A model generated the notes under the pieces. That model was not told the DNA's origin. It did no database searches and was given only the letters and a program-made list of their open reading frames with translations. From an uncultured Eubacteriales bacterium (GTDB taxonomy: Bacteria > Bacillota > Clostridia > Lachnospirales > Lachnospiraceae): a DNA stretch of 64,000 bases. This document shows positions 20,658 through 32,047 of the stretch, one piece after another (within the stretch, counting starts at the first letter, position 1; every line of letters begins with the position of its first letter). Where the stretch lies: contig OMZA01000001.1 in assembly GCA_900315425.1 (NCBI GenBank), forward strand, positions 1 to 64,000, in the 5' to 3' direction. The position numbers and the translations under genes were made by a program.

Positions 20658-22076
20658 ATGCGAAAAACCAAAATAATATGTACCATAGGACCAGCATCAG
20701 AGACTGAGGAAGTGTTAACAGAGATGTGCCATGCAGGTATGAATGTGGCAAGATTAAATTTTTCTCATGGTACTTTAGAAGAACATCAAAAGAAGATTGA
20801 TACCATAAAGAAGGTAAGAGAAAAATTAGACTATCCTTTAGCTATTATGTTGGATACTAAGGGACCGGAATATAGAATTAAAACCTTTAAAGATAAAAAG
20901 GCTTTTCTTGAAGAGGGACAGACTTTTGTATTTACCACAGCAGATATAGAAGGGGATAATACAAGGGTTTCAGTTAATTACAAGAAGCTTATGCAAGAGA
21001 TTCAGGTGGGAGATAAGATTCTTGTAAATAATGGGTTGTTAATATTTGAAGTTATGTCTATTAATGAAACTGAAGCTGAGTGCAAGGTGTTAAATGGCGG
21101 AGAAATATCTGATCATAAAAGCATGAATTTCCCAAATCATGTATTTGCTGAGGATTACTTAAGTGATCAGGATAAGACAGATATATTATTTGGAATTAAA
21201 AATGATGTGGACTTTGTTGCAGCATCCTTTGTATCAAATAAGAAAAATATTCAGGAATTAAGAGATTTCCTGGATATTAACGGTGGAAAAGATATTGATA
21301 TTATTGCAAAGATTGAGAATCGTTCTGGCGTTGATAACATTGATGAAATATGTGAGATTGCAGATGGAATCATGGTTGCCAGAGGAGATTTGGGAGTAGA
21401 GATTCCTTTTGTGGAAGTTCCTGCAATTCAAAAGTATTTAATAAAAAAATGTCGTCTCTTAGGAAAGAGAGTTATAACTGCCACAGAGATGTTGGAGTCA
21501 ATGATTTACAATCCAAGACCAACAAGGGCGGAAATATCAGATGTTGCCAATGCAGTATATGACGGATCTTCGGCAATTATGTTATCTGGTGAATCGGCAG
21601 CAGGTAAGTACCCTGTGGATGCAGTAAAAAATATGGCTGAGATTTCAAAATATACAGAGAAAAATATTGATTACGCAAAGCGTTTCTTTGAAAACAATAA
21701 TTATGTGATTAAAAATAATCAGGATGCTGTTTCCCATGCCACATGTGCCATGGCTATTGATACTAAAGCCAAGGGAATCGTTATTAGCTCTTTATCAGGA
21801 GTTACAGTACGAATGGTTAGTAGATTCAGATGTCCGGTAGATATTATAGGAATGACAACATCTAAAAAGGCATGGAGAAAACTTAATCTTAGCTGGGGTG
21901 TAACACCGGTGTTAAGTGAAGAGTTCGATTCAGTAGATGTAATGTTCTATCACGCAGTAAGATATGCAAAAAAGATATTTGATGTGGAAAAGGGAGACAA
22001 TATTATTCTCACTGGTGGAAGAACAAGTGGACAGTCAGGCAATACTAATACTATAAGGTTGGAAACAATTAAATAG
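20658..22076 (+). CDS. pyk: Pyruvate kinase
   Basis: The 472-residue enzyme has the full pyruvate kinase core: TKIICTIGPAS at the start, ARLNFSHG, MLDTKGPE, the signature IAKIENRSGVDNID, ARGDLGVEIPFVEVP, and TATEMLESMIYNPRPTRAE. It lacks the extra PEP-utiliser domain found at the C-terminus of Bacillus enzymes, and so is the short form. It converts phosphoenolpyruvate and ADP to pyruvate and ATP at the end of glycolysis. GGAGGAAC before the ATG is a strong ribosome site. Confidence 0.97.
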   Translation: MRKTKIICTIGPASETEEVLTEMCHAGMNVARLNFSHGTLEEHQKKIDTIKKVREKLDYPLAIMLDTKGPEYRIKTFKDKKAFLEEGQTFVFTTADIEGDNTRVSVNYKKLMQEIQVGDKILVNNGLLIFEVMSINETEAECKVLNGGEISDHKSMNFPNHVFAEDYLSDQDKTDILFGIKNDVDFVAASFVSNKKNIQELRDFLDINGGKDIDIIAKIENRSGVDNIDEICEIADGIMVARGDLGVEIPFVEVPAIQKYLIKKCRLLGKRVITATEMLESMIYNPRPTRAEISDVANAVYDGSSAIMLSGESAAGKYPVDAVKNMAEISKYTEKNIDYAKRFFENNNYVIKNNQDAVSHATCAMAIDTKAKGIVISSLSGVTVRMVSRFRCPVDIIGMTTSKKAWRKLNLSWGVTPVLSEEFDSVDVMFYHAVRYAKKIFDVEKGDNIILTGGRTSGQSGNTNTIRLETIK

Positions 22077-25197: not shown

Positions 25198-26790
25198 ATG
25201 AATTCAACACAGATTTTAAGTTCAGTGCTGTTGATTATTTTCTTCGCTTTAATGATAGCGGTAGGATTTTACACCAGAAGAAAAGCAACAGACGTAGCAG
25301 GTTTTGTATTAGGAGGTCGTTCTGTAGGACCATGGCTTACGGCATTTGCCTTTGGAACATCTTATTTTTCAGCGGTTATCTTTGTAGGTTACGCTGGACA
25401 GTTTGGATGGTTATATGGTATGTCGGCTACCTGGGCTGGACTTGGAAATGCTTTTATTGGCTCGCTTCTTGCCTGGAATATTTTAGGAAGAAGAACAAGA
25501 ATAATGACTCAGGCATTGGATGCAAAGACCATGCCGGATTTTTTTGGTAAAAGATTTTTATCTACCCCACTTAAAGTTATCGCATCAATAATAGTTTTTA
25601 TTTTCTTAATTCCATACACAGCATCATTATACAATGGTCTTTCTAGTTTGTTTGGATTGGTGTTTGATATTCCATATTGGGTAGTTATTCTTATTATGGC
25701 TGTACTTACAGGTATCTATGTAATCTTTGGTGGCTACATGGCAACAGCTATAAATGATTTTATTCAGGGTATTATAATGTTGTTTGGTATAAGTGCTGTT
25801 ATCATGGCGGTATTACATGATAATGGTGGTCTGTTGGCTGCTACAAAGGCGCTTTCACAGATTCCAACAGACGATGGAAGCTGGGCTACAGGTGCATTTT
25901 CTTCATTTTTTGGTCCGGATCCATTGGCATTATTATTTGTGGTTATTCTTACATCCCTTGGTACATGGGGATTGCCACAGATGGTTGGTAAATTTTACGC
26001 AATTAAAAGTGAAAAAGATATTCACAAGGGAACAATTATTTCTACAGTTTTTGCCATTGTTGTGGCAGGTGGATGTTATTTCCTTGGAGGTTTTGGAAGA
26101 CTTTATGCAGATAAAATCACATATGATCCTAACACAGGAAGACCTATGTTTGACACAATAGTTCCTGCAATGTTATCAACGCTTCCATCAGTTATTATTG
26201 CTATTGTTATTGTGTTAGTACTTGCTGCATCCATGTCTACACTTTCGTCTTTGGTTCTTACATCAAGTTCTACATTTACTCTTGATGTTATCAAGGCAAA
26301 ATTTAAGAAAGACATGAAAGAGGATCATCAGGTTTTATATATGAGAATATTTATTGTATTCTTTATTGTGATTTCAGCAGCTATTGCTATCATTAAAGAT
26401 TCATATCCAGGTCTTACATTTATTGCTCAGATGATGGGTGTATCCTGGGGAGCTCTTGCAGGTGCATTTCTCGCTCCATTCCTTTATGGATTATATTGGA
26501 AAAAGACAACTAAAGCAGGCGTTGCAGTTTGTTATGTTTGGGGTGTAGGAATAGCAGTTATTCAGCTTATAGTTACATTTGCAGAGCTTGATGTAACCAA
26601 ATGGGGTACAGTGTTGAGTTACATTTTCAAATCATCTATTAATTCAGGTGTTGTTGCAATGGTAGGAGGACTTATTATTGTTCCATTGGTAAGTTTATTA
26701 ACACCTAAGTTTGAAAACAATGTTGTGGACGAGATGTTTGAATGTTTTGATGAAAAAGTTGAAGTTGCTAAAAAAGAGGCATTAGATTAA
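25198..26790 (+). CDS. Sodium:solute symporter family transporter
   Basis: A 530-residue, roughly 13-helix transporter of the SSS (PutP-like) family: GFVLGGRSVGPWLTAFAFG near the start, GGYMATAINDFIQG in the middle, and LAASMSTLSSLVLTSSSTFTLD, the sodium-site serine-rich helix. Substrates of the family include proline, pantothenate, sugars and monocarboxylates. It ends 26 bases before the HPr-dehydrogenase fusion, so the two are likely co-transcribed, and a hydroxy- or keto-acid substrate would fit. A 10-codon ORF (25169-25201) overlaps its start by ATGA. Confidence 0.85.
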   Translation: MNSTQILSSVLLIIFFALMIAVGFYTRRKATDVAGFVLGGRSVGPWLTAFAFGTSYFSAVIFVGYAGQFGWLYGMSATWAGLGNAFIGSLLAWNILGRRTRIMTQALDAKTMPDFFGKRFLSTPLKVIASIIVFIFLIPYTASLYNGLSSLFGLVFDIPYWVVILIMAVLTGIYVIFGGYMATAINDFIQGIIMLFGISAVIMAVLHDNGGLLAATKALSQIPTDDGSWATGAFSSFFGPDPLALLFVVILTSLGTWGLPQMVGKFYAIKSEKDIHKGTIISTVFAIVVAGGCYFLGGFGRLYADKITYDPNTGRPMFDTIVPAMLSTLPSVIIAIVIVLVLAASMSTLSSLVLTSSSTFTLDVIKAKFKKDMKEDHQVLYMRIFIVFFIVISAAIAIIKDSYPGLTFIAQMMGVSWGALAGAFLAPFLYGLYWKKTTKAGVAVCYVWGVGIAVIQLIVTFAELDVTKWGTVLSYIFKSSINSGVVAMVGGLIIVPLVSLLTPKFENNVVDEMFECFDEKVEVAKKEALD

Positions 26791-26816: not shown

Positions 26817-28115
26817 ATGCAAGTATTTGATTATGAGGTAAAAGACCCACTAGGATTTCATGCAAGACCAGCGGCTAAGGTTGCTCAGGCCAGCATCGAG
26901 TTTAAAAGCTCGGTAACATTAAGTAGTAACGGGAAGGTGGCCAATGGAGGAAATGTTATTCAGATTCTTCAGCTGGAGGCTAAGAAGGGGGCTGTTGTTC
27001 ATTTTGAAATAGAAGGTCCCGATGAAGAGGCAGCTTGTACAAAAATAAAAGATGTTTTAACCAAGGCAGAGCCTAGAGGAAGAAAAGTTGATATTTTAAA
27101 GATTGCATTCTTTGGAACAAAGTCTTATGACAGAATATTTTTTAGCGAATTAAGTAAGGATTACGGCGAAGGTGCATATAATGTAAGTATTAAATATATC
27201 AAATCACGTTTAACTGAAGAAACCGTGGATTTGGCAAAGGGATTCGATGCAATATGTATCTTTGTAAATGATGAAGCACCTAGAAGTGTAATTGAGAAAC
27301 TTCATGATTACGGAGTTAAGCTTATTTTGCTTAGATGTGCCGGATTTAATAATGTTGATTATACTGCAGCAAATGAATGTGGAATGACGGTTCTTCGTGT
27401 ACCTGCATACTCACCATATGCTGTAGCAGAGCATGCCATGACAATTATACAGGCGGCAAATCGTCGTATTCATAAAGCTTACAATAGAGTAAATGATAAT
27501 AACTTCCGTTTGGGAGGACTCCTAGGTATTGACTTGCATAATAAGATTGCAGGTATTATGGGAACCGGAAGAATCGGCGTATGTATGGCAAGAATATGTA
27601 AAGGCTATGGTATGACAGTTATTGGTTGGGATGCATATCCTAACAAAGCCTTAGAGGAGGAAGGACTTCTTACTTACGTTTCAAAAGAAGAACTGTTACA
27701 AAGAGCAGATTTGATTTCCATTCATGCACCATTGATAATGGGAAAAGGCGGAACTTATCATTTGATAGATGATGATGCTATAAGTTTAATGAAGCAAAAT
27801 GTTATGTTGGTTAATACTTCTAGAGGAGGATTAATAGACGTAGAGGCTCTTATTAAAGGGTTGAAAGCGAATAAATTCCATGCAGTTGCCCTGGATGTAT
27901 ATGAAGGGGAAGATGAAAATGTGTATAATGATCGTTCTGAAGATATGTTAAGTAACGATATAGTGGCTAGACTTACAATGTTTCCTAATCTTATTCTTAC
28001 ATCACATCAGGCATTCTTTACCAGAGAGGCAATGCAGGCAATTGCGGCTGTAACTATGGAAAATGCCCGTAACTTTAACGAATCGTTGCCATACGGACAG
28101 GCAGAAGTAAAGTAA
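26817..28115 (+). CDS. HPr domain fused to a D-2-hydroxyacid (D-lactate type) dehydrogenase
   Basis: Residues 1-85 are an HPr-like phosphocarrier domain with LGFHARPA, His15 being the phosphorylated histidine of PTS HPr. At position 46, where HPr kinase modifies Ser in Firmicutes, there is Asn. Residues 93-432 are a D-isomer 2-hydroxyacid dehydrogenase: RCAGFNNVD (173-181), the NAD loop GTGRIG (249-254), catalytic Arg336 in NTSRGG, Glu363 in DVYEGE, and His397 in TSHQAF. The dehydrogenase half is full-length and most like D-lactate dehydrogenase. The gene has its own AGGAGG and follows a sodium:solute symporter by 26 bases. The fused form suggests phosphorylation-dependent control of the dehydrogenase or a link to sugar uptake, which is inference. 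Confidence 0.9.
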   Translation: MQVFDYEVKDPLGFHARPAAKVAQASIEFKSSVTLSSNGKVANGGNVIQILQLEAKKGAVVHFEIEGPDEEAACTKIKDVLTKAEPRGRKVDILKIAFFGTKSYDRIFFSELSKDYGEGAYNVSIKYIKSRLTEETVDLAKGFDAICIFVNDEAPRSVIEKLHDYGVKLILLRCAGFNNVDYTAANECGMTVLRVPAYSPYAVAEHAMTIIQAANRRIHKAYNRVNDNNFRLGGLLGIDLHNKIAGIMGTGRIGVCMARICKGYGMTVIGWDAYPNKALEEEGLLTYVSKEELLQRADLISIHAPLIMGKGGTYHLIDDDAISLMKQNVMLVNTSRGGLIDVEALIKGLKANKFHAVALDVYEGEDENVYNDRSEDMLSNDIVARLTMFPNLILTSHQAFFTREAMQAIAAVTMENARNFNESLPYGQAEVK

Positions 28116-31428: not shown

Positions 31429-32047
31429 ATGGATATATTAATAACAAATGATGATGGTATAGCATCAAGGGGAATTATTAAGCTGGCAAAATTAGCAAAA
31501 GCTTTTGGAAATGTCACTGTTATAGCACCAAAAAGGCAATGTTCAGCAATGTCTCAAATGATTACTTTACGATGTGATATTAAAGTTGAAAAGGAAGATT
31601 TTCCAGTGGAAGGCGTTAAGGCATATAGCATAACCGGAACTCCTGCAGATTGTATTAAAGTTGGAATTGCCTACCTTAAACTTAAACCTGATTATGTTTT
31701 TTCAGGTATAAATAACGGGTACAATACCGGATTTGACATTGCTTATTCGGGAACAGTGGCAGCGGGTATGGAAGCAGTTATGAATGGAATTCCAGCGATT
31801 GCATTTTCCGTGGAGGTTGATGGTGAGTTTGATATTATTGATGGATATTTACAAGATATCACCAAGAAACTGATTGAAAGACAACCATTAACAGATGGAA
31901 TATGGAATGTTAATTTTCCGGGGTCTTTTATAGGTGAATTAAAAGGGAATAAAACTTGATATTGATAGAATTCCTAAGGATACTGACCTTAGAGCTGTTA
32001 TGGAAGGATACATTTCCGTAGGAAAAATAAAATGCATGGTTTTATAA
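31429..32047 (+). pseudogene. surE: Broken surE (5'/3'-nucleotidase) gene with internal deletion and frameshift
   Basis: The first 176 codons are a clear SurE: MDILITNDDGIASRGI with the metal-binding DD pair, VIAPKRQCSAMSQMIT, GTPADC, FSGINNGYNTGFDIAYSGTVAAGMEA, and WNVNFPG. The frame then meets a TGA at 31957. The true C-terminus continues in the plus-one frame from about 31955, as RIPKDTDLRAVMEGYISVGK, and ends at 32047. Compared with usual SurE (about 250 residues), some 35-40 codons are missing around 31950, so a deletion removed them out of frame. The catalytic residues remain in the truncated product. Confidence 0.75.

Follow-up and report, generated by a model that had tools for sequence, protein, structure and literature searches.

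PTS domains can be built into non-PTS proteins, as in LacS with its IIA domain and in the PRD regulators. Fusions of HPr with IIA and EI are listed in PMC2405797, whose main text contains the word 'dehydrogenase' 0 times. HPr can also act on an enzyme of the pyruvate node: in Vibrio vulnificus, HPr left unphosphorylated when glucose is available binds the pyruvate kinase PykA and stimulates it (PMC5987630). This effect is stated to be absent in E. coli (PMC5987630), and such control is therefore not general. For a fusion of HPr with a dehydrogenase, no description was found in searches of the CC-licensed PMC literature. The locus analysed here, in a stretch of 64,000 nucleotides of DNA that we refer to as the window, encodes such a fusion.

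Two domains in one reading frame

The fusion gene is real and conserved. An earlier note on this DNA had described an HPr domain joined in one frame to a full D-lactate-type dehydrogenase, and both the frame and its two halves were recovered here. ORF analysis of 26817-28115 (+) gave a single frame of 432 codons plus the stop, with an ATG start and no internal stops. The features of the locus, all on the forward strand, are as follows.

25198..26790, + strand: sodium:solute symporter (Pfam SSF), ending 26 bases before the fusion start
26817..28115, + strand: HPr-D-2-hydroxyacid dehydrogenase fusion gene, 432 aa, with the stop inside the coordinates
26817..27068, + strand: HPr domain, residues 1-84, with Pfam PF00381 at residues 5-82
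26859..26861, + strand: His15 codon, the presumed phosphorylation site, followed by Ala16, Arg17 and Pro18; invariant in 47/47 fusions covering it
26952..26954, + strand: Asn46 codon, replacing the HPr-kinase serine; Ser in 0/47 fusions
27069..27095, + strand: linker, residues 85-93; pLDDT falls to 69 in the block 81-90, and residue 94 is Leu (TTA), not Met
27096..28082, + strand: LdhA-type D-2-hydroxyacid dehydrogenase domain, residues 94-422, from PDB and Foldseek matches
27165..27179, + strand: fusion-specific loop G-E-G-A-Y, residues 117-121, in 48/48 fusions
27738..27746, + strand: second fusion-specific insertion M-G-K, residues 308-310, in 39/48 fusions

Pfam matched PTS-HPr (PF00381) to residues 5-82 (7.4e-21; 74.4 bits against a cut-off of 23), covering positions 4-80 of the 81 in the profile, and assigned the C-terminal part to 2-Hacid_dh (residues 123-422, 1.9e-28) and 2-Hacid_dh_C (residues 210-399, 1.4e-42). 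PTS domains other than HPr were not found in the fusion by Pfam, and the protein does not class as a multiphosphoryl transfer protein. The AlphaFold2 model had a mean pLDDT of 84.3 and a pTM of 0.69, with blocks up to residue 80 of the HPr half at pLDDT 90 or more and residues 219-234 and 363-377 below 50. The strands and helices of the modelled HPr half follow what we take to be the canonical HPr order.

His15 and Arg17 of the fused HPr sit in LGFHARPA, and the His15 pointed out previously proved to be conserved in all 47 fusions covering it. Gly13, His15, Ala16, Arg17 and Pro18 (G-x-H-A-R-P) were invariant in 47/47, as were Ala23, Gln24 and Ala42, and five of the 11 near-invariant positions within residues 2-85 lay in 13-18 (hypergeometric p = 8e-5). 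Position 46 was Asn in 31 of the 47 fusions, Asp in 14, Glu in 1, Arg in 1 and Ser in 0. When the fusions were aligned together with 34 free HPr-like proteins (four from the window's genome and the best one per carrier for 30 carriers), the same column held Ser in 29, Gly in 2, Arg in 2 and Lys in 1. A second change lies beside the kinase site, Lys45 being present in 34/34 free HPr-like proteins versus 3/47 fusions. His15 was found in 24 of the 34 free proteins; the other ten carried Glu (7), Arg (2) or a gap (1) and all had Ser46. The fusion pattern, His15 kept and Ser46 lost, is thus the reverse of that in these ten proteins. S46D is a mimic of Ser-P HPr, and the 14 fusion rows with Asp46 recall it.

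The Ser46-to-Asn replacement stood and was extended by these data: with Asn46, the window's fusion lacks the serine of an HPr-kinase substrate. Its meaning has to be qualified, since the free HPr beside EI in the window's genome combines His15 with Gly46, whilst a Crh-like protein there combines Glu15 with Ser46. The two HPr inputs are already split among these paralogues, so Asn46 alone is no special mark of the fusion, and the fusion is not alone in this genome in escaping HPr kinase. Across 12 chosen pairs of fusions, dN was higher in the HPr half than in the enzyme half in every pair (12/12); in the nine pairs where dS was not saturated and the ratio could be computed, HPr-half dN/dS was 0.03-0.37, indicative of purifying selection on the HPr half.

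Residues 94-421 had LdhA-type D-lactate dehydrogenases as their best PDB matches (E about 1e-90), and the top Foldseek matches of the AlphaFold2 model were the D-LDHs of Salmonella, Pseudomonas, E. coli and Fusobacterium. The fusion has the two Pfam domains of an LdhA-type D-2-hydroxyacid dehydrogenase together with its catalytic Arg/Glu/His set. R336, E365 and H397, which we take to be the catalytic residues, and D272, presumably the NAD-site Asp, were invariant in 48/48 fusions, in agreement with the complete active site previously proposed. Homology points to a D-lactate dehydrogenase activity with pyruvate and NADH, although the substrate may be a 2-oxoacid other than pyruvate, the clade having private residues (W271, A304, R403). 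A VanH-like resistance enzyme was considered separately and rejected, the best NCBIfam vanH model reaching 210 bits against a cut-off of 540.

Several features of the enzyme half set the fusions apart from 37 stand-alone LDHs. Residues 118-120 of the 117-121 loop were gapped in 37/37 of these, whereas the loop was lacking in 0/48 fusions; the 308-310 insertion, also gapped in 37/37, was present in 39/48. W271, G364, K290 and R403 were fixed or nearly so in fusions but seldom seen among the stand-alone enzymes, and position 304 was Cys in 37/37 stand-alone enzymes and Ala or Val in fusions. Such loops and residues may serve to couple the two domains, or else to change which substrate is used. 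The position of residue 94 is the initiating Met in 27/37 stand-alone enzymes and Met in 0/48 fusions. Within codons 82-98, ATG, GTG and TTG were all absent in 34/46 fusions, nine had only GTG or TTG, and three had ATG; in most fusions the dehydrogenase is therefore not separately startable there.

Recurrence and descent of the fusion

A search for the two-domain architecture across genomes, as proposed in the earlier note, found it at 47 further loci, or 48 with the window's own. These comprised 44 loci on genome contigs (L036-L079), one in a carrier among the window's relatives (G018) and two from an even phylum sample (G247 and G326). The genome-contig scan returned 56 relatives, of which 44 were fusions and 12 stand-alone dehydrogenases, the figure of 44 being a lower bound because the scan requires exact peptide matches. 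One of the loci (L075) is truncated by the start of its contig, the first residue present being 42. In the even phylum sample, at least two fusions besides the window's own occurred among 398 genomes, up to four candidates having been scored in each genome. The fusion was found in 0/8 sampled congeners of the window's genome. By record title, hosts belonged to Lachnospiraceae, Erysipelotrichaceae, Oscillospiraceae/Ruminococcaceae and Selenomonas; some were titled only Clostridia, Eubacteriales or Firmicutes, and many records named rumen or gut samples. Titled strains also carried the fusion, namely Selenomonas bovis DSM 23594, S. montiformis and Floccifex porci.

A dehydrogenase-part tree (85 rows; a quick method with SH-aLRT support only) grouped 48/48 fusions in one clade with support of 100, nested among LdhA-type enzymes and adjoining eight stand-alone enzymes of the window's family. 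A tree of the HPr part with 33 free HPrs likewise placed 47 fused HPrs in one clade (98), albeit with few columns and weak resolution. A single clade for each half suggests that the fusion probably arose once and then spread. Erysipelotrichaceae and Selenomonas rows lay inside a starred group of the dehydrogenase-part tree together with Lachnospiraceae rows, and this mixing of families suggests horizontal transfer.

Neighbourhood and carrier genomes

The symporter upstream of the fusion was identified as Pfam SSF, reaches no NCBIfam cut-off, and ends 26 bases before the fusion start, as had been described. The two genes are possibly co-transcribed in the window. The further suggestion of a transport-metabolism pair was rejected as a general feature: a symporter homologue was present at 0/45 other fusion loci searched (L125 and L126 lay outside the search and several flanks were short), and the ten annotated upstream neighbours were of nine kinds. 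These ten, from 46 loci, were a DUF438/hemerythrin protein, two MATE transporters, an Ig-like protein, a phosphoesterase, a family 5 solute-binding protein, PGA_cap, a phosphomannomutase, an M32 peptidase and a xanthine/uracil permease. Neighbour genes were heuristic ORF picks, and the upstream gene was absent from the data at L059, L075, L078 and L079. MATE-like genes adjoined the fusion in six loci (L036, L038, L055, L056, L057 and L060), with 24-29% identity to the L038 copy in four matches and with differing sides or strands. They are too diverged and too variably placed to be called partners, but their recurrence counts against a wholly random neighbourhood. Seven Erysipelotrichaceae-group loci (L051, L053, L054, L058, L064, L065 and L068) had the fusion standing alone between opposite-strand genes. 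A promoter/terminator scan gave counts not above the shuffled background. In sum, the neighbourhood of the fusion yields no pathway.

Other genes near the fusions were also observed. A second, different 2-hydroxyacid dehydrogenase gene lay 8-63 bases 3' of the fusion in a Merdimonas-like group (L056, L057, L059, L060 and L078) and was absent in the window. The window encodes another pyruvate-node enzyme, pyruvate kinase, at 20658-22076 (+), on the same strand and 4.7 kb upstream of the fusion. A frame at 31429-31959 (+), presumably surE-like, ends at 176 codons, and a surE-like stretch continues in the next frame, which may reflect a frameshift or a misreading.

The Enzyme I (EI) N-terminal domain was found in 45/46 carriers versus 42/58 non-fusion relatives (p = 3e-4) and a separate LdhA-type enzyme (E<=1e-80) in 1/46 carriers (G083) versus 22/58 (Fisher p = 7e-6), both comparisons being confounded by taxonomy (many carriers are Erysipelotrichaceae, and the comparison set is from the window's order) and by completeness (part of the comparison set is 60-80% complete). 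The window's genome encodes EI; the sole carrier without an EI match was a metagenome bin (G102). HPr kinase was present in 43/46 carriers, the exceptions being G065 and the two genomes titled Selenomonas. Each of the 46 carriers had at least two HPr matches, so sugar transport need not use the fused copy. In six carriers (G061, G063, G069, G070, G071 and G076) there was one more dehydrogenase, with 33-34% identity (E 1e-44 to 1e-57), conceivably a D-LDH of a different type. The window's genome (96% complete) had no other match to the fusion dehydrogenase at E<=1e-40 and no Ldh_1-type enzyme, and the next best relatives were weak, at E 1e-20 and below in rank. The fusion is accordingly the only LdhA-type enzyme found there and perhaps this genome's only lactate dehydrogenase.

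Further HPr-like genes were noticed elsewhere in these genomes. At G000:C13:118363-118602 (L003) lies a divergent HPr-like protein with G-I-H-F-R-P and Ser46 kept, directly before a gene that we take to be glmM-like and overlapping its start by one base. A short HPr-like protein at G000:C18:17876-18019 (L005), beside a presumably transposase-like gene, lacks the His15 region and has the Ser46 motif KSIMG. Two genomes, both titled Selenomonas, had an HPr match in an open frame of ~565 codons near EI (G067:C21:147625 and G101:C4:49421), possibly another HPr fusion.

Regulation, rival readings and known systems

The architecture, its conservation, the single clade, the co-occurrence with EI and HPr kinase and the near-absence of a separate LdhA-type enzyme are established at the level of sequence. 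The reading we prefer, at about even odds, is that the HPr half is an in-cis PTS phospho-acceptor domain that would regulate the lactate-type dehydrogenase via EI and His15. It is plausible that EI passes phosphate from PEP to His15 of the fused HPr, yielding pyruvate, and that the enzyme is thereby controlled. Through the phosphorylation state of His15, the PEP/pyruvate ratio and PTS flux would alter the activity of the attached dehydrogenase, itself expected to consume pyruvate, the product of EI. HPr kinase would be unable to make the Ser-P form of the fused HPr, which would read the EI branch only, because position 46 is never Ser; the free HPr and Crh-like paralogues of the same genomes would handle transport and catabolite control. 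The unphosphorylated, sugar-replete fusion would be expected to be the more active form. In favour of this reading are the invariant His15 motif in the faster-changing half, the opposite pattern in the ten free HPr-like proteins, the EI and LdhA contrasts between carriers and relatives, the additional HPr matches of every carrier and the PykA precedent; against it stand the Gly46 of the free HPr in the window's genome, the confounding of those contrasts, the more distant dehydrogenases of six carriers, the possibility of another substrate and the absence of the PykA effect in E. coli.

The main rival, unlikely in our estimation, is docking or channelling: bound to Enzyme I (or to EII complexes) through its HPr domain, the pyruvate reductase would sit where EI releases pyruvate from PEP, with NADH re-oxidised at source and phosphorylation control secondary. 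In its favour, the His15 loop is intact, EI co-occurs in 45/46 carriers, and pyruvate is both the product of EI and the expected substrate of an LdhA-type enzyme. HPr-EI complexes are transient, however, and docking alone explains the invariance of His15 less well than phosphorylation does. The sequences do not separate the two, and docking may act jointly with phosphorylation control. Slightly less likely again is a bifunctional carrier, in which the fused HPr would be an ordinary phosphocarrier for one given EII or PRD regulator, with the dehydrogenase only as a passenger or stabiliser. Its active-site motif is a full phosphocarrier motif, and PMC2405797 describes multiphosphoryl transfer proteins with HPr domains, but at least two HPr matches in 46/46 carriers count against such a role. 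Among the ten annotated upstream neighbours there was no EII and no PRD protein; the rest were clustered only and may include a PTS neighbour. That the HPr part is a structural remnant, serving as a tag for folding or oligomerisation and having no PTS function, would fit the faster divergence of this half than of the enzyme but is very improbable, G-x-H-A-R-P being invariant in 47/47 fusions and HPr-half dN/dS below 1 in 9/9 pairs. An assembly or annotation artefact joining two genes, in favour of which nothing was found, is practically excluded, since an assembly join is ruled out by recurrence of the architecture at 47 further loci, titled strains among them, and Met occurs at residue 94 in 0/48 fusions.

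Control through phosphorylation of the fused HPr would mean that the PTS is joined covalently to an enzyme making a fermentation end product, and could tie lactate fermentation directly to sugar import in some gut bacteria. The fusion also illustrates how evolution divides the two HPr inputs, EI at His15 and HPr kinase at Ser46, among the paralogues of a single genome. A broader proposal, which we advance tentatively and at somewhat less than even odds, is that the fusions are EI-phosphorylated, HPr-kinase-free fermentation enzymes that make D-lactate a direct readout of PEP/pyruvate and have spread horizontally among gut Firmicutes, replacing LdhA. How much D-lactate rumen and gut Firmicutes produce is relevant to acidosis and to cross-feeding.

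Compared with the HPr family (PF00381), the fused domain shares the profile match, His15, Arg17 and Pro18, but it is not free, has Asn or Asp at position 46 in 45/47 fusions and is joined to a metabolic enzyme. With the LdhA-type D-LDHs it shares the RCAGFNNVD and GTGRIG motifs, the R/E/H catalytic set and the NAD-type Asp, whose functional roles we assume. The likeness to the enzymes of E. coli, Salmonella, Fusobacterium and Pseudomonas (PDB 3wx0, 4cuj, 5z21, 5z20) extends over the whole catalytic part, at 41-44% identity over about 320-340 columns. The fusion differs from them in its added N-terminal HPr, in the private loops 117-121 (48/48) and 308-310 (39/48), and in W271, A304 and R403, where the 37 stand-alone enzymes have mostly Y, C and E/K. 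LacS and the PRD regulators likewise carry a PTS-phosphorylated domain covalently on a non-PTS protein (phosphorylation of the fusion being presumed), but here the attached domain is HPr and its partner a fermentation enzyme. In multiphosphoryl transfer proteins (FruB, EI-HPr, IIA-HPr; PMC2405797), HPr is also one domain of a longer chain, but the partners are PTS phosphotransfer domains, whereas here the partner is a redox enzyme. As with PykA of V. vulnificus (PMC5987630), the phosphorylation state of HPr would act on an enzyme of the pyruvate node; there HPr acts in trans, whereas here it would exert its putative control in cis, on the dehydrogenase to which it is joined.
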